NCBI GenBank assembly: GCA_021781255.1
Contig: JAJXXG010000944.1
Coordinates: 1 to 10,758 of the forward strand
Reading direction: 5' to 3'
Length of the DNA stretch: 10,758 bases
From: Acidobacteriota bacterium
GTDB lineage: Bacteria > Acidobacteriota > Terriglobia > Terriglobales > Acidobacteriaceae
The notes beneath the pieces are model-generated. The model was not told the DNA's origin. It did no database searches and was given only the letters and a program-made list of their open reading frames with translations. Each line of letters begins with the position of its first letter. Within the stretch, counting starts at the first letter, position 1. Shown here in pieces: positions 1,473 to 10,758 of this stretch. The translations under genes and the position numbers were made by a program.

Positions 1473-2636
1473 GAGGTCGAGCCGGATGAACTCAATATCC
1501 GAGACGGAGGAGACGGGTCTTCCGCGGGCGATGCGGTAGAGAGCGCGGCCGCCGCCAAGGAAGAAACCGAGGAGGATGGCGGCGAAGGAGCCGATGAGGA
1601 CAAGGCTGGCGATGCCGAGGAGAAGGCGGCCGGTTTTCTGGACTTCGGACTCGGCGGGGAGCGGGATGGCGGTGAGCTGGTCCTGATAATTGACGAGCTC
1701 GATGAGGCGGTGGCTTTCGTCGGGGATGGCGTCTCCGCTGACGAGGGCGACGATGGGACCGCTGCGGCGGACTTCGAGCGAGGCGGTGTCAGAGTCCTGG
1801 AGTGGCTTGGGCCAGGCGGGCTGGGCCTTGCTGCCGGCCTTGATATAGTCGCGGATCTTCTGTTCCTGGGCGGCAGCCATCTGGGGTGTGGGATAGCTGA
1901 TGAGGGTGAGAGTGGCAGGCCCGGAGGGTAGCGAGTAGGTGGCGGTGATGGCTTCGGCGTCGAGGTTGAAGCCGATGAGGCTGGCGGGGAGGACGCCGCC
2001 TGCGCCGGTGTATCCGTCGGGACCGAGCGCGTAGTGGGTGGTCTGCTTTTCCAGCGAAGCCTGGGGCAGGTTGAGAAGGATGGGCGGGGGGATTGCCTTG
2101 TTGCCGCGCGGCGTGGGGAGCTGGTGGGCGAGGGAGCGCATTTCTGCGGCGGACATGGGCGTGATGGTGGAGAAGGTGGCGTCGACGACGGTATCACCCT
2201 GCCAGAAGAGGACGTGATTGTGGTCCGAGGCTGCGCCGAAGCCGATATCGGCGCGGGGGAACCCGTCCTTGCGGTAGAAGGTGTAGGCGCCGTAGGCTCC
2301 GCTCTCGTCACTGAAGCGGAGTGCGCGGAGGGTGAGGGTGTCGCCGTCGCGCTTGTAGGTGGCGGAGGCGCCGTAGGTGAAGTCGTATTCCTGGAGGGCG
2401 GCGGCGTTGACGGCGTCGGCCTGTGCGGTGGAGGTGAGCGGATTGGCGGAGCCGGTGAGGACCCATCCGGAGAAGACCTCGGGCAGAAGAGCCTTGGCCT
2501 TGGCGGCGGGTGGCACGGGGACGTCGACGGTGACAGCCGGGGCGTGCGATGGGGCGGGTTGAGGGCTCTGTGGCCGGGCTTGCGCGCGGGCGGCGAGAAG
2601 AGCGAGGCAACAGAGCAGGGTGGCGGACTTCCGCAT
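1464..2636 (-). CDS. Secreted, membrane-anchored protein, DUF6599-like (390 aa)
   Basis: The precursor has a signal peptide (positive MRK, hydrophobic core to about residue 16, cut probably after ARAQA at 20). A Pro/Ala-rich linker (21-48) follows, then a long extracytoplasmic region beginning LLPEVFSGWVLTGS. This contains the YGAYTFYRKDG and LFWQGDTVVDAT segments that I associate with the acidobacterial DUF6599 family. A C-terminal transmembrane helix (about 337-361) follows, then a basic cytoplasmic tail. It is therefore probably exported and anchored by its C-terminus; biochemical function is unknown. The ATG at 2636 is supported by a GGTGGGAG stretch upstream. It diverges from the LOG gene across 73 bp that must hold both promoters. 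The family name is from memory of its sequence style and is moderately sure. Confidence 0.8.
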   Translation of the reverse strand: MRKSATLLCCLALLAARAQARPQSPQPAPSHAPAVTVDVPVPPAAKAKALLPEVFSGWVLTGSANPLTSTAQADAVNAAALQEYDFTYGASATYKRDGDTLTLRALRFSDESGAYGAYTFYRKDGFPRADIGFGAASDHNHVLFWQGDTVVDATFSTITPMSAAEMRSLAHQLPTPRGNKAIPPPILLNLPQASLEKQTTHYALGPDGYTGAGGVLPASLIGFNLDAEAITATYSLPSGPATLTLISYPTPQMAAAQEQKIRDYIKAGSKAQPAWPKPLQDSDTASLEVRRSGPIVALVSGDAIPDESHRLIELVNYQDQLTAIPLPAESEVQKTGRLLLGIASLVLIGSFAAILLGFFLGGGRALYRIARGRPVSSVSDIEFIRLDLKK

Positions 2637-2709
2637 TCAAAAAGACTCCCACCTCAAGGGTACACGCTGGCGGGGAATGCGTGTGCCGGGGCGCTATGCT
2701 GGAGGCACG

Positions 2710-3270
2710 ATGAGCGAAAATGTGGGACGTATCCGTCGTGTGGCGGTGTATTGTGGCTCGGCGAGCGGCGCGGACCCGGTGTATCTGCAGGAGGCGCGGG
2801 CGCTGGGAGTGGCGATTGCGACTGCGGGGATGGGTCTTGTGTATGGCGGGGCGAGCGTGGGGCTGATGGGCGCAGTGGCCGATGCGGCGCTGGCCGGTGG
2901 CGCGGAGGTGATTGGCGTGCTGCCGGAGGTGCTGGCGGGCAGCGAGATTGCGCACACGGGATTGACGCGGCTGGAGCAGGTGCCGACGATGCACGCGCGC
3001 AAGGCGCGGATGGTGAAGCTGGCCGATGCGTTTCTGATCTTGCCGGGAGGCTACGGAACGCTGGACGAGCTGATGGAAATTGTGACGTGGGCGCAGTTGA
3101 AGATTCACGCCAAGCCGTGCGTGCTGATTAATACGGCGGGGTATTGGAACGGGCTGCTCGATTTTCTGGATACGGCGGTGCTGGAAGGCTTTCTGAAGGC
3201 GAAGAACCGGGCGCTGCTGCGCGTGGCAGGGAGTGCGGCGGAGGCGGTGGCAATGCTGGAGGAGATGTGA
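2710..3270 (+). CDS. LOG-family protein (cytokinin riboside 5'-monophosphate phosphoribohydrolase-like)
   Basis: At 186 aa it is normal in length for the LOG / TIGR00730 family, often misnamed lysine decarboxylase. The Rossmann-like fold motifs are present: VAVYCGSASG (11-20), GLVYGGASVGLMGAVADAAL (42-61), the MHARKARM arginine motif (94-101) and the diagnostic PGGYGTLDE (112-120). Members release the base from nucleoside 5'-monophosphates; in bacteria the real substrate may be another nucleotide. The ATG at 2710 has GGAGG 4 nt upstream. Start codons further upstream (from 2620) would add residues that overlap the divergent promoter region and are rejected. The last ~108 bp of this gene recur at 4649-4762, so its present 3' end may have been delivered by an inserted island. 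Confidence 0.92.
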   Translation: MSENVGRIRRVAVYCGSASGADPVYLQEARALGVAIATAGMGLVYGGASVGLMGAVADAALAGGAEVIGVLPEVLAGSEIAHTGLTRLEQVPTMHARKARMVKLADAFLILPGGYGTLDELMEIVTWAQLKIHAKPCVLINTAGYWNGLLDFLDTAVLEGFLKAKNRALLRVAGSAAEAVAMLEEM

Positions 3271-3275
3271 GGGCG
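3168..3275 (+). repeat. Left copy of a ~108-bp direct repeat (3' end of LOG gene)
   Basis: Positions 3168-3275 match 4655-4762 at a constant offset of 1487 bp. Only two substitutions are seen, and both are synonymous in the LOG frame: GAA to GAG (Glu) and CTG to TTG (Leu). The match ends 5 nt after the LOG stop codon. This copy completes the intact gene. Confidence 0.85.
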
Positions 3276-3325
3276 TTGGGGATGGGGCGGTTTCGGGTTA
3301 GACGACCAACCGCTAGCGTGCCGGA

Positions 3326-3990: not shown

Positions 3991-4008
3991 TTCTAATATT
4001 TGTTAGAA
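3991..4008. promoter_or_regulatory. Palindrome upstream of the antitoxin gene, likely autoregulatory operator
   Basis: TTCTAA and TTAGAA (3991-3996, 4003-4008) form a perfect inverted repeat with a 6-nt AT-rich spacer. It lies 22 bp before the antitoxin ATG and overlaps a -10-like TAATAT (3994-3999). Type II antitoxins of the AbrB/MazE fold normally repress their own operon by binding such palindromes. The role here is inferred from position. Confidence 0.5.
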
Positions 4009-4029
4009 TCTGGGCAGGGAGGGTCTGTC

Positions 4030-4254
4030 ATGCTGAAGCTCAAGCTCACGACGATTGGAAGCTCTGTCGGGGTGATTCTGCCCAAAGAGGCCCTGGCCCG
4101 GCTGAAGGTCGACAAGGGCGACTCCATCTTTCTGACGGAAGAGAAGGATGGGTTCCGGCTAACGCCGTTCGATCCAGCGTTTGAGAATGCGATGCAGTCG
4201 GCGCGCAAGGTGATGAAGAAGCGCCGGAACGCATTGCGCGAGCTCGCAAAGTGA
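4030..4254 (+). CDS. AbrB/MazE (SpoVT-AbrB) family antitoxin of a Doc module
   Basis: This 74-aa protein begins with a swapped-hairpin DNA-binding domain: LKLTTIGSSVGVILPKEALA (4-23), then LKVDKGDSIFLTEEKDGFRL (25-44). A charged C-terminal tail (about 45-74, RKVMKKRRNALRELAK) is the part expected to wrap the toxin. This matches the 'addiction module antidote' type that partners Doc toxins. The ATG at 4030 has GGGAGGG 6-12 nt upstream, better than the upstream in-frame start at 4000. Its stop codon overlaps the toxin's GTG by 4 nt (GTGA at 4251-4254), giving translational coupling with antitoxin first, the usual order. Regulation is likely by the palindrome at 3991-4008. Confidence 0.9.
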   Translation: MLKLKLTTIGSSVGVILPKEALARLKVDKGDSIFLTEEKDGFRLTPFDPAFENAMQSARKVMKKRRNALRELAK

Positions 4255-4637
4255 GAGCCCGCCGATGGGTATGGGTTCCGGTGGAGGTGGTCCTTGCCAT
4301 TCACGACGAACAGATTGCAGAGCACGGCGGCATCGGCGGCGTCCGCGATGTGGCAGTGGTGGAATCTGCGCTGGCACGGCCCCGCAACCTCGTAGCCTAC
4401 GGGAAACCCGATGCTGCTGCATTGGCGGCAGCGTATGCATTCGGGATCTGCAGCAATCACGGTTTTCTCGATGGCAATAAACGGACGGCCTACGTCGTTG
4501 CGGAAACGTTCCTTGATCTGAATGGTTACGCGATGGAGGCTTCGGACGAGGCGGTGGTGCACGCAGTGCTTGCAGTCGCATCCGGCGGGATGACGGAAGA
4601 ACAACTGGAGAAGTGGTTCCGATCCTTTATCCGGTAG
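4251..4637 (+). CDS. doc: Doc-type toxin (Fic/DOC fold, death-on-curing protein)
   Basis: The length of 128 aa is standard for Doc. The Fic-fold signature HGFLDGNKRTA is at residues 70-80, with the catalytic His70, Asp74 and the NKR that separates Doc from canonical Fic proteins (HxFxxGNGR). Upstream segments GIGGVRDVAVVESALARP (27-44) and ALAAAYAFGICSNHGF also fit the family. Phage P1 Doc phosphorylates elongation factor Tu and stops translation; the same activity is inferred here. The start is the GTG overlapping the antitoxin stop. The motif is intact, so the toxin is probably functional. Immediately after the stop, the same frame runs into the duplicated LOG 3' end, showing that the right border of the island is close. 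Confidence 0.93.
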   Translation: MRARRWVWVPVEVVLAIHDEQIAEHGGIGGVRDVAVVESALARPRNLVAYGKPDAAALAAAYAFGICSNHGFLDGNKRTAYVVAETFLDLNGYAMEASDEAVVHAVLAVASGGMTEEQLEKWFRSFIR

Positions 4638-4648
4638 CTGGCAGGCTT

Positions 4649-4762
4649 GATTTTGGATACGGCGGTGCTGGAGGGCTTTTTGAAGGCGAAGAACCGGGCG
4701 CTGCTGCGCGTGGCAGGGAGTGCGGCGGAGGCGGTGGCAATGCTGGAGGAGATGTGAGGGCG
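4649..4762 (+). pseudogene. Truncated duplicate of the LOG gene 3' end (right repeat copy)
   Basis: This segment repeats the last ~108 bp of the intact LOG gene, including its TGA (4755-4757) and five bases beyond. It keeps a frame encoding DTAVLEGFLKAKNRALLRVA and the rest of the C-terminus, with only two synonymous changes. At its left end, GATTTT is joined to GGATAC with a 2-bp loss relative to the intact copy, and homology stops there. It has no start and cannot encode a working enzyme. It is best read as the original chromosomal 3' end, left behind when the DUF3592/antitoxin/Doc island entered the LOG gene with its own replacement 3' end. Confidence 0.8.
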
Positions 4763-4768
4763 GCGGGG

Positions 4769-4796
4769 TTTGGAAAGGCATTGGCTGGACTATAAT
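4769..4796 (+). promoter_or_regulatory. Probable ssb promoter with perfect TATAAT
   Basis: A consensus -10 box TATAAT is at 4791-4796. TTTGGA at 4769-4774 is a possible -35 box with a 16-bp spacer. It is 87 bp upstream of the ssb start and begins only a few bases after the duplicated LOG fragment, so ssb appears to have kept its own promoter after the island inserted. Confidence 0.6.
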
Positions 4797-5419: not shown

Positions 5420-6406
5420 CTATTTGCGTTTGGCGCGCTCGCGCTGGAGTTCGCGATAGAGCTCACTTTTGGACTGGCCGGTTTCGCGTGCGAGGCGCTT
5501 GAGGGCGTCCTTTTCTTCGAGGCCCAACTCGGAATGCAGAGTGGCGATGCGGGCGCTGATTGATTCCGAGGTCCGAGAATCCGGACCTGGGGTATCGGCG
5601 GAACGAATGGGGGCTTCGACGAGGAGGACGAATTCGCCGCGGATGCGGTCGCGATCGGAGAGGGCGCTGCGGAGTTCGGCGACGGTGCCGCGGAGAAACT
5701 CTTCGTGCAGCTTGGTCAGCTCGCGTGCGAGGACGATGCGCAGGGCGGGACCGAAGACCGATTCGAGATCGGCGAGTGTGTCGGCGATGCGGTGCGGCGC
5801 CTCATAGAAGATGAGCGTCTGCACTGCTTCGCGCGGAGCGGCGGCGAGGTCTTCAAGGCGGGAGCGGCGCGCGCCGGCTTTTTCCGGCAGGAAGCCGAGG
5901 AAGGTGAATTCCGCGGTGGGCAGGCCGGAGGCGATGAGGGCGGTGAGGGCAGCGCTGGCTCCGGGGATGGGGACGACAGGGATACCGGCGGCGATGGCCT
6001 CTGCGGCGAGCAGCGCGCCGGGATCGCTGATGCCGGGCAGGCCCGCGTCAGAGACGACGGCGATGGCAGCGCCGCGCTGGATTTCCGCAATGAGCTCGGT
6101 GGCGCGGGCGCGCTCATTGTGCTGATGACAGCTGACGGTGGGCGTGTCGATGCCGTAGTGGTTGAGCAGCTTCTGCGTCTGGCGGGTGTCTTCGCAGGCG
6201 ATGCGGCTGGCGCGGCGGAGGATGTCGAGGGCGCGAAGGGTGATGTCGCCGAGGTTGCCGATGGGAGTGGCGACGAGGTAGAGACTGGGTGCGAGCGGGG
6301 TCTCGCCGGAGGTGGTCCGCGGTTTGTGCTCTCCCACCTTAGCTGATTCGCCAGAAGCGCCAATCGCCGAAGGTGGGGCACACGGAGCTTGAAGATCGCC
6401 GGACAT
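5420..6406 (-). CDS. rsmI: 16S rRNA (cytidine(1402)-2'-O)-methyltransferase RsmI
   Basis: RsmI uses S-adenosylmethionine to 2'-O-methylate C1402 in the ribosomal P-site region. With the ATG at 6406 it is 328 aa. Family motifs in order are YLVATPIGNLGDITLRAL (43-60), ACEDTRQT (70-77), VSDAGLPGISDPG (118-130), VPIPGASA (146-153), FYEAPHR (200-206) and RELTKLHEE (228-236). A basic C-terminal region follows. The ATG lies 7 nt after the stop of the upstream M50-like gene, indicating an operon. The oddity is an N-terminal extension of about 40 residues before the conserved domain; much of it (about residues 9-25) is encoded by a REP-like palindrome at 6331-6382. No ATG lies between that element and the catalytic domain; a GTG at about residue 24 is an alternative start. 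Confidence 0.95.
   Translation of the reverse strand: MSGDLQAPCAPPSAIGASGESAKVGEHKPRTTSGETPLAPSLYLVATPIGNLGDITLRALDILRRASRIACEDTRQTQKLLNHYGIDTPTVSCHQHNERARATELIAEIQRGAAIAVVSDAGLPGISDPGALLAAEAIAAGIPVVPIPGASAALTALIASGLPTAEFTFLGFLPEKAGARRSRLEDLAAAPREAVQTLIFYEAPHRIADTLADLESVFGPALRIVLARELTKLHEEFLRGTVAELRSALSDRDRIRGEFVLLVEAPIRSADTPGPDSRTSESISARIATLHSELGLEEKDALKRLARETGQSKSELYRELQRERAKRK
6331..6382 (-). repeat. REP-like palindrome within the 5' coding region of rsmI
   Basis: The outer stem is CCCACCTT/AAGGTGGG (6333-6340 with 6370-6377), with a weaker inner stem around ATTSGC. Read on the minus strand it begins GTGCCCCACCTTCGGCG and ends GCTAAGGTGGGAG, matching the element at 10371-10421 in foot, stem and central CTTCT loop. 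It is read through in frame by rsmI. Confidence 0.75.
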
Positions 6407-6413
6407 GGGCGGG

Positions 6414-7526
6414 CTATCCGCTGGCCGCATCGTGCTCAATGCGGCGCTGCTCGGCGAGCAGGGACATGGAGCTCATGAGGTTTTGAACGCTGACGATGCC
6501 GACGACCCGGCCACTGTCTGTGACGGGAATGAGGGAGAGCCCGTGGCCGGCGTTGAGGCGGCGGATGGTGGCGCCGAGGGTGTCTTCAGGTCGGGCGACC
6601 TGGAAGGCGCGGGACATGACGGACTGGATGTAGCCGTTGCCGTCGTTGCGGAGCGCGTCCACGATGCGTTGACGGGAGACGATGCCGACGAGCTCGGGTC
6701 CGCGGACGACGGGAAAATCGTCCTGGAGCGAGTGGATGCAGCGGGTGAGAGCGTCGGCGAGGGTGTCTGATGGCGAGAGGGTGGCGAAGTCAGTGAGCAT
6801 GACTTCGCGCATGTGGACGGTGTCGACGACGGACTGGAAGAAGACGCCCTGGTCTTCAATCTGCGCGCCGATCATGATGAAGAAGCCGGCGATGACGAGC
6901 CATGGAGAGTGGAAGAGCATGCCTGCGATCATGGCGGCGAGAGCGAGGAGCTGGCCGAGCCCACCGGCGGCGCGGCCGGCTGGGGCGAGGCCGTGGTTGC
7001 GGGCAAAGCTGCCGCGGAGCAGGCGGCCACCGTCGAGCGGGTAGGCTGGGAGCAGGTGGAGTGCGGCGAGGCCGAGCTGGAACCAGACCATGCTGCGAAG
7101 CAGATAGTCGGCGGTGATCCAGGGCTGAGCGAAGAGCTGGATGGAGGGCCCGGCGGCGCCGAGGAGAGCGGCACCGAGAGCGACGGCCGTGGCGGCGTTG
7201 GCGAGCGGGCCGGCAAAGGCCAGGGCGAATTGTCCGGAGCCCTGGTTGGAGTTGTCCTGGCTCTCTGGGTTGGCGTAGGCGAAGAGGCCGCCGATGGGGA
7301 GCAGGAGAATGGCGCGCAGGCGCAGGCCGAACCACGCGGCGGTGAGCAAGCGCGCGATTTCACGCACGAGCACAGCGAGGACGAGTACGAAGAAGAGGCC
7401 GAGGCCACGCAGAACACCGCTATTGCCGCTCAGCAGCAGACAGACTGCGGCCAGCAGCGGAAAGAAGGCATGGACGCGGAGTTCAACGCCCATCCAGCGG
7501 CCCATTGGGAGTGACCAGCCTCGCAT
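6414..7526 (-). CDS. Site-2-protease-like (M50) membrane protein with two CBS domains, catalytic motif degenerate
   Basis: The protein has 370 aa. The start MRGWSLPMGRWMGVELRVHAF is typical of bacterial Rip/SpoIVFB-like M50 proteins. It has several transmembrane helices between about 18 and 220, then two CBS modules (about 239-300 and 301-355; VMLTDFATLSPSDTLADAL and VVGIVSVQNLMS). CBS modules usually sense adenine nucleotides. Active M50 enzymes carry HExxH in the second helix; here the position reads REIAR (55-59), so both zinc-binding histidines are arginine. The second motif LPAYPLDGGRLLR (159-171) keeps its Asp. It is therefore probably a proteolytically inactive relative with a binding or regulatory role. 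It is first in an operon with rsmI. A TACAAT box lies only 6 nt before the ATG. Confidence 0.88.
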   Translation of the reverse strand: MRGWSLPMGRWMGVELRVHAFFPLLAAVCLLLSGNSGVLRGLGLFFVLVLAVLVREIARLLTAAWFGLRLRAILLLPIGGLFAYANPESQDNSNQGSGQFALAFAGPLANAATAVALGAALLGAAGPSIQLFAQPWITADYLLRSMVWFQLGLAALHLLPAYPLDGGRLLRGSFARNHGLAPAGRAAGGLGQLLALAAMIAGMLFHSPWLVIAGFFIMIGAQIEDQGVFFQSVVDTVHMREVMLTDFATLSPSDTLADALTRCIHSLQDDFPVVRGPELVGIVSRQRIVDALRNDGNGYIQSVMSRAFQVARPEDTLGATIRRLNAGHGLSLIPVTDSGRVVGIVSVQNLMSSMSLLAEQRRIEHDAASG

Positions 7527-7582
7527 AAGGCAATTGTAGAAGGTCGGGGCTGAGAGGCGATGGTCATTTATGCTGGTTCGCG

Positions 7583-8242
7583 ATGCGCATCATTGCGGGA
7601 CAGTATCGGTCGCGGGTTCTGGAGGCACCGGTGGGGATGTCAACGCGGCCGACGAGCGACCGGCTGCGGGAGACGCTGTTCAACGTGCTGGCGCCGCGGA
7701 TGGAGGGATGCGCGTTTGCGGATTTGTATGCAGGCTCGGGAGCGGTGGGGTTGGAGGCACTGAGCCGCGGCGCGGCGCGTGTGGTGTGTGTGGAGCGCGG
7801 GCCAGCGGCGCTGAAGGCGCTGCGCGGGAATCTGGCGCGGCTGGGCGTGAAAGAGGGTGTGCGCGTGGAAGCGGCGAGTGTGGCGGCTTGGCTGAAGCGG
7901 GCACAGGGGCCGTGGGATATCGTGTTTCTCGATCCGCCGTACGACGCGGAGGAAGAGTATGAGCGCGCGCTGGGTGCGCTGGGCGGCGGGGCGGTTCTTA
8001 GCAGAAGCCACGATTCGACTCCTCACGCAGAAGTGAATCCTGGCGGGGAGATCGTACCCTCCCACCCTAAACGCGATGCGTTTAGGGTGGGGCACCCAAT
8101 TCTGGCGGAGGGCGCGGTGGTGATTGCCGAGCATCGAAGAAAGATGAAGCTGGAGGATCGGTATGGCGGGTTGCGGCGCGTGCGGCTGCTGGAGCAGGGC
8201 GATGCGGCGCTGAGTTTTTATGAGACAGCTGTCAGCTGTTAG
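7583..8242 (+). CDS. rsmD: 16S rRNA (guanine(966)-N2)-methyltransferase RsmD, with an in-frame palindrome insertion
   Basis: RsmD methylates G966 of 16S rRNA in the assembling small subunit. Motifs are MRIIAGQYRSR at the start, TRPTSDRLRETLFNVL (21-36), the SAM-binding DLYAGSGAVGLEALSRGA (47-64), and the catalytic DIVFLDPPY (112-120). The domain then resumes with ILAEGAVVIAEHRRK (173-187). Between residues 140 and 173 lie about 32 residues absent from E. coli RsmD. They are encoded by a 96-bp insert (about 8003-8098) containing two hairpins, the larger a perfect 14-bp stem at 8061-8091. The frame is kept. The last codons and stop fall in a heptamer repeat (8227-8261). The ATG at 7583 is chosen by homology; ribosome-binding evidence is poor. 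Confidence 0.94.
   Translation: MRIIAGQYRSRVLEAPVGMSTRPTSDRLRETLFNVLAPRMEGCAFADLYAGSGAVGLEALSRGAARVVCVERGPAALKALRGNLARLGVKEGVRVEAASVAAWLKRAQGPWDIVFLDPPYDAEEEYERALGALGGGAVLSRSHDSTPHAEVNPGGEIVPSHPKRDAFRVGHPILAEGAVVIAEHRRKMKLEDRYGGLRRVRLLEQGDAALSFYETAVSC
8012..8039 (+). repeat. Small imperfect hairpin in the rsmD insert
   Basis: GATTC-G-ACT (8012-8020) pairs with AGT-GAATC (8032-8039) with one bulged base. It precedes the larger REP-like palindrome by about 20 bp and lies in the same stretch absent from other RsmD proteins, so the insert appears to be composite. Confidence 0.45.
8059..8096 (+). repeat. REP-like palindrome inside rsmD
   Basis: A perfect 14-bp stem, CCCACCCTAAACGC/GCGTTTAGGGTGGG (8061-8074 with 8078-8091), has a GAT loop. 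On the minus strand it starts GGGTGCCCCACC and ends GGTGGGAGGG, the same feet as the elements at 6331-6382 and 10371-10421. Its inner stem differs, so it is a distinct subtype of the same family. Confidence 0.8.
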
Positions 8243-8261
8243 CTTTCAGCTTCCAGCTCTG
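8227..8261 (+). repeat. Tandem heptamer array AGCTNNN (5 units)
   Basis: Five adjacent 7-bp units read AGCTGTC, AGCTGTT, AGCTTTC, AGCTTCC, AGCTCTG. The array covers the last codons and stop of rsmD and runs towards the next gene, ending about 12 bp before its start. It resembles the degenerate heptameric short tandem repeats found in several bacterial groups. Confidence 0.65.
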
Positions 8262-8273
8262 GAAAGGAATGAA

Positions 8274-9398
8274 TTGAAGAACAGGATGCAGTGGATTGCG
8301 TGTGCGGCGCTGGTATGGGCCGCGATGGGCTTTGGTCAGACAAGTGCTTCGTGGGGGATTGGGCCATGGACGCGGCCAGCCGCTGGCAATCCGGTGGTGA
8401 CGCCGAATGCGGCATCGACGTTTATGGACCCGATTGCGGAGAAGCCGGTGCAGTGGGAGGCGCTGCACACGTTCAACCCGGCAGCGGTGGTGCGCGGCGG
8501 CAAGGTGTTCGTGCTGTATCGCGCAGAGGACAACTCGGGCGCGATGGAGATTGGCGGGCACACGTCGCGGCTGGGGTTGGCGGAGAGCAAGGACGGTGTT
8601 CACTTCACGCGCAGGGGCGAGCCGGTGTTTTATCCGGCGGAAGACGATCAGAAGGCGCGCGAGTGGCCGGGCGGTGTGGAGGATCCGCGCATTGTGGAGT
8701 CGCCGGACGGGATGTATGTGCTGACGTACACGCAGTGGAATCGCGAGACGTATTCGGTGGGGATTGCGACCTCGCGCGACCTGCTGCACTGGACGAAGTA
8801 CGGGCCGGCGTTTTTGACGGCGAAGGGCGGCAAGTATGCGCAGCTGAAGTACAAGTCGGCGGGGATTGTGACACAGCTGGTGAAGGGACGGCTGGTGGCG
8901 GCGCAGATCAACGGGCTCTACTGGATGTACTGGGGCGAGGGCGCGATTCACCTGGCGACATCGAAGGATTTGATTCACTGGGATCCGGTGGAAGACCAGC
9001 GCGGGAAGCCGGTGGAGCTGCTGCGGCCGCGGGCGGGGCATTTTGACAGCTCGTTCCCGGAGACGGGGCCGCCGCCGGTGCTGACCAATGCGGGGATTGT
9101 GGTGCTCTACAACGGGAAGAATGCCGCCGGACACGATGCCGCGACAGGTGGCGACCCGAAGCTGGGCGAGGGCGCGTATGCGGCAGGCGAGGCGCTGTTT
9201 GCCGCGAACAACCCGGCGCTGCTGCTGAAGCAGACCGACGAGCCTGTGCTGAAGCCGGAGCTGCCGTATGAGAAGACGGGACAGTACGCGGCGGGAACGA
9301 CTTTCGCCGAGGGGCTGGTGTGGTTCCACAAGCGGTGGTTCTTGTACTACGGGTGTGCGGACTCGCTGGTGGCGGTTGCTACGGCGCCGGGGGAGTGA
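8274..9398 (+). CDS. Secreted glycoside hydrolase family 130 protein (mannosidase/mannoside phosphorylase-like)
   Basis: The protein is a five-bladed β-propeller type, 374 aa from a TTG at 8274 (AAAGGA 5 nt upstream). An ATG at 8286 would shorten it by four residues. The N-terminus is a signal peptide, cut probably near residue 22 after MGFGQ, so it acts outside the cytoplasm. GH130 marks are SRLGLAESKDGVHF (98-111), the GGVEDPR motif (133-139) carrying the family's general-acid Asp, repeated 'ATSRDLLHWTKYGP'-like blades, and a final YGCAD (359-363). GH130 enzymes cleave β-mannosides by phosphorolysis or, in some secreted members, hydrolysis; which applies cannot be decided here. It has no sugar-transport or sugar-enzyme neighbours. 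Confidence 0.88.
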   Translation: MKNRMQWIACAALVWAAMGFGQTSASWGIGPWTRPAAGNPVVTPNAASTFMDPIAEKPVQWEALHTFNPAAVVRGGKVFVLYRAEDNSGAMEIGGHTSRLGLAESKDGVHFTRRGEPVFYPAEDDQKAREWPGGVEDPRIVESPDGMYVLTYTQWNRETYSVGIATSRDLLHWTKYGPAFLTAKGGKYAQLKYKSAGIVTQLVKGRLVAAQINGLYWMYWGEGAIHLATSKDLIHWDPVEDQRGKPVELLRPRAGHFDSSFPETGPPPVLTNAGIVVLYNGKNAAGHDAATGGDPKLGEGAYAAGEALFAANNPALLLKQTDEPVLKPELPYEKTGQYAAGTTFAEGLVWFHKRWFLYYGCADSLVAVATAPGE

Positions 9399-9452
9399 AG
9401 AGCGGATACGACGAGCAGGAAGCCGAGCATTCAGTAGATGAGAGAGGTGGGC

Positions 9453-10340
9453 ATGGGACGCTCCAAGAGCACAACTGCAAGAGGAAATGCATTGGAAGAT
9501 GCTGTTAGAGCGATCGAATCTACAATACTTCGCACAACTCAAGGGAATGCTGGAAAGACGTTTCGCATTGAGAGTAAGCGAAAAGTGACTTCGCACACTC
9601 CTGATGGAGGATCTGTAGAGCACGAAATCGACATCTGGGTGAGCATTGATGATTCGTACTACCCTTCGGTTTTCATCTTTGAATGTAAGAACTGGAACAA
9701 ACGGGTTGGGAAAGACAAGGTGATTCTTCTCAGCGATCTTGTAAAAGTGACTGGCGCCCAGAAGGGTTATATGGTGGCGAGTAGCTATACATCCGGCGCG
9801 ATAGCCCAGGCCAGCACGGATAAACGGATCGAGCTACTTACATCAAGAATTCTGGACATCCACGATCTGCCTGCAGTCGTCGCCACATTTCATGCGGTCA
9901 GCAAGAACAACCTCCATGCTGAATTCAAAATGAAAAGCGGCGTGGACCCGAGTACTTCATCTGGCGAGCAGATCGATCTGAAGAGCGCGACGTTTACTAT
10001 CGATGGAAATGAAGTCAACCTGTCGCAATATATCAATGAGTGGTGCGAGGAAGCTTCCGACAAAAAGATGAATTCTGTGCGCTCGGAAAAACTTGACGCA
10101 GGGATGTACGACTTTGAGTTCTCTGATAAGCGATCCTTTGTTGATTCGGTGGTGAAGATTAATGGGAAGCCAATTGTCGAAGTTGAGCTGAACGGGACAT
10201 TTGCATTGGGTGTCCACAGTATCGACCACATAGAAGGCTTTGAAGTTGCCGGAAGAGGTCGGTCAATCCGCGTTTCAGTCACTCTTCCGAACATCGGCCC
10301 AATGATTGTTGACTTTTCGCAGCTAGTCGCGAGAGATTAG
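9453..10340 (+). CDS. Lone PD-(D/E)XK nuclease, Mrr/restriction-endonuclease-like (295 aa)
   Basis: The first ~125 residues show a restriction-endonuclease-like core: GNALEDAV (11-18, Glu15), SVEHEIDIWVSI (54-65, Asp60), then FIFECKNWNK (74-83) with the catalytic E-x-K (Glu77, Lys79), and GYMVASSYTSGAIAQA (105-120). The remaining ~170 residues form a separate β-rich domain that I do not recognise. The order fits Mrr-like and related DNA-cleaving proteins, often used in defence. No methyltransferase, specificity subunit or helicase is next to it. The ATG at 9453 is chosen because GAGAGG lies just upstream; ATG 9438 has no such site. Composition is clearly less GC-rich than rsmD and the GH130 gene, which suggests horizontal acquisition. 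Confidence 0.78.
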   Translation: MGRSKSTTARGNALEDAVRAIESTILRTTQGNAGKTFRIESKRKVTSHTPDGGSVEHEIDIWVSIDDSYYPSVFIFECKNWNKRVGKDKVILLSDLVKVTGAQKGYMVASSYTSGAIAQASTDKRIELLTSRILDIHDLPAVVATFHAVSKNNLHAEFKMKSGVDPSTSSGEQIDLKSATFTIDGNEVNLSQYINEWCEEASDKKMNSVRSEKLDAGMYDFEFSDKRSFVDSVVKINGKPIVEVELNGTFALGVHSIDHIEGFEVAGRGRSIRVSVTLPNIGPMIVDFSQLVARD

Positions 10341-10370
10341 GCATTCTTAAAGTAATCGATAATCCGCCGG

Positions 10371-10421
10371 GTGCCCCACCTTCGGCGCTGCGCCTTCTTT
10401 GCGCAGCGGCTAAGGTGGGAG
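10371..10421 (+). repeat. REP-like palindrome upstream of the RAYT gene
   Basis: Outer stem CCCACCTT/AAGGTGGG (10375-10382 with 10412-10419), inner stem CTGCGC/GCGCAG (10388-10393 with 10401-10406) and a CTTCTTT loop. It starts 31 bp after the nuclease stop and ends 55 bp before the RAYT start, the classical position of REP elements around their transposase gene. It may also act as a terminator for the nuclease gene. Confidence 0.8.
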
Positions 10422-10476
10422 GCGAATCGTTCGGCATCTTGTGTTGTTCTGGCCTGCCCCATCTACAATCCCGCAT

Positions 10477-10758
10477 GTGACTCAGGGTCTGAAGCGCTAC
10501 CAGCCCGCAGGCGATCTGCATTTTGTCACTTTCAGTTGCTACCACCAGCAGCCCTATCTCGCGTCGGCCGAGGCGCGTGACCGCTTTGCAGAGGCGCTGG
10601 AGCGGACGAGGGTGCGCTACGCGTTGTGTGTCATCGGGTATGTCGTGATGCCCGAGCATGTGCATCTGCTGTTGAGTGAACCACAGCGGGGAACGCTCGC
10701 AACGGCGTTGCATGCGCTCAAGCTGTCGGTGTCGAAGCTGTCGCGTGAGCGGCCCTTC
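10477..10758 (+). CDS. REP-associated tyrosine transposase (RAYT, Y1/HUH), 5' part only
   Basis: The frame is open from a GTG at 10477 to the edge of the window (94 codons, no stop). It starts GLKRYQPAGDLHFVTFSCY, typical of TnpA-REP proteins, and contains VVMPEHVHLLLSE (56-68) with the HUH metal-binding histidines His61 and His63. The catalytic tyrosine would be further on, outside the window. These single-strand DNA nickases and ligases of the IS200/IS605-related Y1 group act on REP hairpins and are usually single-copy, domesticated genes. The start lies 7 nt after a -10-like TACAAT (10464-10469) with no Shine-Dalgarno sequence, so translation may be leaderless. Confidence 0.88.
   Translation, partial: MTQGLKRYQPAGDLHFVTFSCYHQQPYLASAEARDRFAEALERTRVRYALCVIGYVVMPEHVHLLLSEPQRGTLATALHALKLSVSKLSRERPF

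Follow-up and report, generated by a model that had tools for sequence, protein, structure and literature searches.

Of the RAYT (REP-associated tyrosine transposase) systems that have been studied biochemically, those of E. coli, Stenotrophomonas and Marinomonas are all described as GTAG-tagged (PMC8266576), and residues W94, Q95, E100, H101 and R104 of TnpAREP are reported to read that tag (PMC6006769). Atypical hairpins have been described for class 3, which counts Acidobacteria among its hosts, and for subclass 2.6, whilst REPs lie in frame within the tnpAREP genes of subclass 2.4 (PMC6006769). In the same paper, Quentin et al. (2018) reported about 600 class 3 TnpAY1 hairpins in Solibacter usitatus. 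Acidobacterial RAYT-like genes with inverted repeats were described as TIRYTs, or TIRtrons, by Di Nocera et al. (2013) from Terriglobus saanensis, Koribacter versatilis, Acidobacterium capsulatum and Granulicella mallensis, with one of the repeats forming a repeat family, and the text of that paper also covers intragenic REPs of other tags and the Rickettsia palindromic elements (PMC3733652). RepRanger has since predicted thousands of REPs in Granulicella aggregans (PMC12306157). REPs within genes and RAYTs with inverted repeats in Acidobacteria have thus both been published before; neither a GGTGCC foot nor REPs in rsmD were found in the text of this literature, the acidobacterial repeat figure (Figure 9) aside, and priority is uncertain.

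Here we describe a 10,758-nucleotide stretch of acidobacterial DNA (the window) that holds three palindromes and the 5' part of a RAYT gene. We conclude, with high confidence, that these palindromes belong to an acidobacterial REPtron as its REP elements, with the foot GGTGC(C), and that their RAYT begins at 10477. The elements share with those of E. coli their small hairpin form, the conserved 5' foot, the placement around the RAYT gene, the high copy number and, in some subtypes, a mismatched stem, and the RAYTs are single-tyrosine HUH nucleases with the fold of TnpAREP (4er8). Unlike the GTAG-tagged REPs of E. coli, the foot is GGTGC(C), which falls outside the canonical GT[AG]G (GTAG/GTGG) tag. 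In combining a Y1 transposase with neighbouring hairpins of high copy number in an acidobacterial host, the system recalls class 3 TnpAY1, but the latter has the foot CnGA and a tyrosine motif ending in Q (PMC6006769), in contrast to GGTGC(C) and the class 2 motif Y---NP of the related RAYTs here. The TIRYTs are probably the same gene group as our acidobacterial RAYTs; however, some TIRtron repeats are given as GGGGWSAS, which GGGGCACC does not fit when compared with the text rather than the figure, and that text, its Figure 9 repeats aside, mentions for TIRtrons neither a foot of the GGTGCC type nor copies within genes, and gives no counts across genomes (PMC3733652).

Hairpins and RAYT gene of the window

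The original prediction, made from the letters of the window, had named three palindromes, one of them 55 nt before a RAYT gene, and all were recovered with coordinates off by at most one base (Table 1). The pattern GTGCCCCACC-N8-38-GGTGGGAG matched three times in the window and not once in any of 200 dinucleotide-preserving shuffles. As had been proposed, two copies share inner parts and the third differs: the 6331 and 10371 copies have an imperfect stem in common, with CCACCTTCGGCG and a CTTCT loop, whereas the rsmD copy (8059–8095) has a different stem, a perfect palindrome, joined to the same foot and outer stem. The foot, predicted as GTGC, needs one correction: two of the three copies read GGTGC, and the 6331 copy, with GTGTGC, lacks that G. 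All three copies are single rather than closely spaced inverted pairs, and two are not cleanly intergenic: 8059–8095 is in the rsmD frame, and 6331–6381 falls either within the N-terminal coding part of rsmI or in its 5' leader. The matched core of the rsmI product begins at residue 53, after the REP, and this copy may be translated or belong to the leader.

Table 1. Coordinates of features in the window (z, folding z-score as single-stranded DNA)
Feature	Position	Strand	Evidence
rsmI (16S rRNA 2'-O-C1402 methyltransferase)	5420..6439	-	TIGR00096, 263.1 bits
REP hairpin, subtype of 10371–10421, foot GTGTGC	6331..6381	-	pattern match, z -2.65
rsmD (16S rRNA m2G966 methyltransferase), 219 aa, 33-codon net in-frame insert	7583..8242	+	TIGR00095, 135.1 bits (cut-off 117.5)
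109-nt stretch in rsmD replacing 10 nt of the empty site (L122)	7995..8103	+	alignment with L122 and L126
REP hairpin within rsmD, perfect-stem subtype, foot GGTGC	8059..8095	-	pattern match, z -6.24
Candidate guide sequence: foot GGGTGCC, immediately 5' of the stem and running into it	10369..10375	+	
REP hairpin upstream of RAYT; stem CCCACCTT-[C.T mismatch]-...-AAGGTGGG, inner stem GCTGCGC/GCGCAGC	10371..10421	+	exact pattern match, z -5.14
RAYT (REP-associated tyrosine transposase) gene, 5' part, 94 aa	10477..10758	+	PF01797, NF047646

The RAYT gene begins with GTG, and its open frame runs past the end of the window, so that the catalytic tyrosine motif would fall beyond it. The translated piece matches PF01797 (Y1_Tnp) at E 4e-7, with an HUH motif reading EHVH, and matches NF047646 (REP_Tyr_transpos) at E 2.6e-13; the score of 50.1 bits does not reach the cut-off of 80, which would not be surprising for a fragment of 94 aa. 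P0001, the representative of its 90% cluster and 98% identical to it, stops at 125 aa, also short of the tyrosine motif, suggesting that the window gene may be damaged and its RAYT lineage decaying.

Elsewhere in the window, a direct repeat of 123 nt (94% identical; 3164–3286 and 4651–4773) lies at the 3' end of a LOG/lysine-decarboxylase-like gene (2620–3270). The roughly 1.36 kb between its copies holds a MazE-like antitoxin (4000–4254) and a Fic/Doc-like toxin gene (4251–4637), and resembles inserted DNA by which the 3' end of this host gene was restored. Directly 5' of the REP and RAYT, a gene at 9438–10340 encodes an Mrr_cat domain of restriction endonucleases (E 1.7e-7).

Relatives of the RAYT

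The window RAYT piece matched 1856 proteins at E 1e-3 or better, of which 120 were listed. Its closest full counterpart, at locus L001, has a hairpin of the same type upstream and an inverted one downstream. The top PDB sequence match of the L001 protein was 4er8 (E 1.2e-10), and 4er8 was likewise the top fold match of its AlphaFold model (pLDDT 87.7; E 9.6e-10, TM 0.73). Across 68 aligned RAYTs (a further 13 of 81 were too short and were left out), the HUH motif was conserved as E in 65, H in 67, V in 64 and H in 66, and the class 2 motif Y---NP as Y in 65, N in 66 and P in 65. A new RAYT subclass is not claimed on these grounds, EHVH being undiagnostic, as 4er8 itself reads EHMH.

Amongst the positions reported to read GTAG in TnpAREP, 65 of the 68 RAYTs retained W94 and 57 retained Q95, but E100 was replaced by D in 67 and H101 by F in 53 (H in one), and R104 had given way to W, F or Y in 46 (W 26, F 10, Y 10; R in 14). 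Since D100 and R104 have been reported for group 3 TnpAREPs (PMC8266576), residue 104 is the change that stands out. An aromatic residue 104 went with G at foot base -6 in 37 of 37 loci and R with G in 4 of 13 (Fisher 2.9e-7; seven loci with other residues set aside). As the reader of base -6, however, residue 104 is a lead only: the tree offers three independent contrasts, on which a sign test cannot reach significance. Separately, the RAYTs of L066, L067 and L073 (L066 and L073 being one assembly) carry the motifs DFVVW and ENPV, with altered residues beside the guide-reading positions, and are flanked by hairpins with a GGCTGC foot.

Feet and stems at related loci

Related loci were the best 80 of 188 from a contig scan with P0002, a close homologue, and all are titled Acidobacteriota or sub-groups thereof. 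In a seed-free count of 8-mers, GGTGCCCC ranked top upstream of the RAYTs, in 51 of 78 windows of 200 nt (0.39 expected), and its reverse complement ranked top downstream, in 43 of 75 (0.57 expected). The best palindrome within 260 nt upstream, chosen blind to any motif, had a GGTGCC foot at 41 of 78 loci (on the 5' side only in 39), the remainder having GGTGGCC (n = 4), another foot (n = 25) or no palindrome (n = 8); background pieces gave GGTGCC in 4 of 400. Seeding on the CCC stem alone, blind to the foot, GGTGC preceded 103 of 166 hairpins near RAYTs versus 17 of 186 far from them, and near RAYTs every position from -6 to -1 carried about 0.8–1.2 bits of information, compared with no more than 0.15 in the distant set. 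Together, the foot-blind and motif-blind results show that the foot takes in the G before GTGC; the sequence at the hairpin base thus stands as the candidate recognition site, as first suggested, but in widened form.

Of the 63 near hairpins without GGTGC, some reflect the other strand or longer runs of C and others are real lineage variants, namely GGTGGC, GGCTGC and GTGTGC. The GGCTGC foot was found at L066, L067 and L073, GTGTGC at L031, and GGTGGC-type feet on both sides at L035, L052, L061 and L079. Counting the window as an eighty-first locus, a GGTGCC hairpin lay upstream of 56 RAYTs, downstream of 47, on both sides of 36 and on at least one side of 67; some loci end next to the RAYT gene, and the downstream side of the window's own lies outside the stretch.

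Behind the common foot, stem bodies were diverse (for example CCCAGGTCTC, CCCATTCAAGCC, CCCGTCCTTGTC and CCCACCTTCGCC), and many, the window's included, show by eye a C.T mismatch after TT. The expected subtypes are real: stems vary by lineage, yet those on the two sides of one RAYT agree at 0.88 versus 0.53 between loci (36 loci; 0 of 10000 permutations). Stem similarity also tracks RAYT identity (Mantel r 0.31, 46 loci; 0 of 5000), its mean rising clearly only above 70% identity. The strict window pattern found no match beyond the window in the 80 RAYT loci, its stem and 3' AG being too specific, and the foot with a generic stem was therefore used in later searches. When 400 kb were scanned in each of two genomes, the distance between neighbours was within 200 nt for 3 of 8 pairs in one and 2 of 17 in the other, three of these five pairs having the same orientation; this stricter scan found fewer copies than the genome pattern would suggest, and partners may have been missed.

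Copy number and co-occurrence with RAYTs

As relatives standing in for the window's own genome, 150 genomes were drawn from the family of the closest locus and searched with GGTGCCCCA-N10-40-TGGG, a pattern that does not require pairing and counts some hairpins twice, the reversed control being the only guard against this. Enrichment, whose absence the original prediction had named as grounds for rejection, was about 25-fold, with 6744 matches against 269 for the reversed pattern. Copies also accompanied RAYTs: genomes with a related RAYT (a match at E 1e-10 or better; n = 121) held a median of 36 and a maximum of 304, and those without (n = 29) a median of 6 (Mann-Whitney p 9.5e-7, kinship ignored), at least 10 copies being present in 109 of 121 and 10 of 29, respectively. 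The comparison spans draft assemblies, the titled loci being mostly draft MAGs, and carries no correction for kinship. Fourteen of the 29 genomes had an NF047646 match at E 1e-3 (six over the cut-off), and the 15 that lacked a RAYT by both searches kept the median of 6; against the association, five of these hold 13, 16, 31, 72 and 166 copies. The GGTGCC-rich but RAYT-less genomes G038 (166), G039 (72) and G048 (31) could possibly reflect loss of the RAYT, contigs absent from the assembly or mobilisation by something else. A phylum sample of 60, reduced to the 55 genomes outside the family draw, gave 305 matches against 301 for the control, and the hairpin element is clearly not phylum-wide.

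RAYT matches numbered 1–16 per genome across the 121 genomes, above the class 2 means of Quentin Table 1, and correlated weakly with hairpin copy number (Spearman 0.21). Hairpins per RAYT match ran unevenly from 2.7 to 304 in seven picked genomes. In four chosen genomes, 39 of 40 within-genome RAYT pairs were 43–91% identical; the exception, at 98.7%, was G019:C31 and G019:C55 (L225, L226), either a recent duplication or a repeated contig end.

Copies inside RAYT genes

GGTGCC hairpins resembling the flanking ones were found in frame, in either orientation, within 7 of 70 readable RAYT genes (L021, L022, L023, L037, L068, L078 and L080; a tag at L038 was spurious and was left out), in each case between the HUH and tyrosine motifs. 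Two copies occur in the L078 gene and three in that of L080. Hairpin-free relatives could be aligned for three of the groups concerned, as expected of mobile units. More generally, 29 of 183 hairpins lay in long open frames; these were checked by eye in RAYT genes only, and chance open frames are common owing to the high G+C. Short palindromes in frame in genes, the RAYT gene included, are in this respect like published intragenic REPs and Rickettsia palindromic elements. They differ in foot and host group, and in that a single host gene, rsmD, has probably received REPs of different stem types at one site on several occasions.

In-frame copies in rsmD

The rsmD gene of the window carries 99 extra nucleotides, or 33 codons, in frame, relative to the 186-aa proteins P0122 and P0123 and, in DNA, to L122 and L126. 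Outside its own cluster, its nearest relatives are P0123 (77%) and P0122 (Terracidiphilus; 72%), both insert-free, and the window therefore probably stems from an acidobacterium of this kind. The 109-nt stretch consists of the REP, read in frame as PSHPKRDAFRVGHP, and about 60 nt of other sequence. The latter was tried and rejected as a decayed older REP, 1208, 1760, 1875 and 130 of 2000 shuffles matching four consensus strings as well. In the model of the window protein, the insert forms a low-confidence loop between the end of a helix at 133 and the start of a strand at 174, most of the core scoring above 90.

Among the top 120 RsmD proteins, a set to which that of the window belongs, 36 had inserts at the REP site. 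In 28 of these 36 the insert contains GHP, as which GGGCACCC is read; a PRSQ- or PRSP-like start occurs in 32 and an HP- or RP-type ending in 33. Two readings could be matched exactly to hairpins at RAYT loci: PRSQNRDLGH is the reverse-strand reading of the hairpin beside the L008 RAYT, and SPNARDRGH (P0140) that of the L012 hairpin. At the DNA level, REP inserts in rsmD were recognised at L112, L115 and L134, that is, in 3 of 47 rows of L111–L160 (L135, L147 and L151 left out; one of the rows, L125, misparsed); 20 of the rsmD loci were picked for long spans, and the count is not a frequency. None was found in the 30 family loci L081–L110, in which L106 and L110 carry other inserts. The RsmD inserts of L106, L110 and L149, which lie in this loop or one next to it, cannot be recognised as REPs, and this part of the protein seems generally tolerant.

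When insert columns were left out of the RsmD tree, the insert label required 15 changes, at least three of them forced by starred branches. The window row fell in a starred clade of 11 rows, the other 10 of which are insert-free. A single clade of insert-bearing RsmD was rejected (p-AU 6.7e-14, on a quick tree). The RsmD inserts probably have more than one origin.

Discussion

The anatomy and distribution of a REP/RAYT system with an uncommon foot are well supported by these data. That palindromes and transposase instead form an ordinary IS200/IS605-like insertion sequence, the hairpins being its ends and the scattered copies MITE-like remnants, we judge very unlikely. The hairpins on both sides of 36 of the 81 RAYTs, the IS200/IS605 transposases that follow 4er8 as next matches of the L001 protein by sequence and fold, the up to 16 RAYT matches per genome and the one nearly identical pair in G019 would all suit such an element. 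However, the top match by both sequence and fold is the TnpAREP 4er8 and not an IS200 transposase, the window RAYT matches NF047646 far better than NF033573 (IS200; E 2.4e-4), the other 39 within-genome pairs are unlike those of an active IS, and the hairpins outnumber the RAYT matches, if unevenly. An origin as RNA elements (terminators, attenuators or mRNA stabilisers) under transcript selection, with the RAYT incidental, is highly improbable. The hairpins are strong by fold, and known REPs often lie in transcribed places (PMC3733652). Yet a scan of 6200–10758 predicted nothing resembling a terminator where the three hairpins lie, the window has no Rfam match at gathering score, footed hairpins cluster at RAYT genes with the foot outward, copies lie within reading frames and counts track RAYT presence.

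For rsmD, the alternative to repeated insertion is a single ancient event, after which the body of the inserted REP was replaced by those of other types, a history that we consider rather unlikely. It would account for the single site and, where legible, the one orientation and phase, the latter despite five of six frames of a typical hairpin being open. The label changes on the tree, the insert-free neighbours of the window row and the rejection of a single clade speak against it, although horizontal transfer or recombination of rsmD could mimic these patterns.

On the REPtron reading, the RAYT, a one-tyrosine HUH nuclease, would bind the hairpin as single-stranded DNA and read the conserved foot GGTGC(C), which precedes a CCC...GGG stem and takes the role that GTAG has for E. 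coli TnpAREP. It would then cut next to the hairpin and insert copies at new sites in single-stranded DNA. Under the guide rule of PMC8266576, cuts would be predicted at GC or GA if GTGC is the guide, and at CA or CC if it is GGTG. The body and loop of the stem would drift fast, partly in step with the RAYT lineage, giving rise to subtypes, whilst the foot and the outer C/G pairs would stay because they are read by the RAYT. Copies would be retained where they are harmless, either between genes or, as in RsmD, where an in-frame copy encodes part of a disordered loop. We infer this biochemistry (binding, cutting, joining and mobility), as well as which RAYT moves which subtype; the rsmD copy, with its other stem subtype, may belong to another RAYT.

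A more far-reaching interpretation is that these elements constitute a further, GGTGCC-tagged REP superfamily, in one Acidobacteriota family and its near kin, in which the guide residues of the RAYT have changed together with the foot and entry into genes is site- and strand-specific, so that one place in RsmD has repeatedly received different REP types in the same frame and orientation. As a whole this is speculative, and we regard it as unlikely. If true, a transposase would keep supplying ready-made coding insertions to one loop of a host protein, RsmD.

The biochemistry of foot reading by RAYTs, and of the co-evolution of foot and protein, comes from very few systems, and the foot variants GGTGC, GGTGGC, GGCTGC and GTGTGC beside related RAYTs offer natural material for swapping experiments. 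Ultimately, repeated in-frame insertion of REPs into a conserved rRNA methyltransferase would mean that protein sequence has been added without evident loss of the gene.
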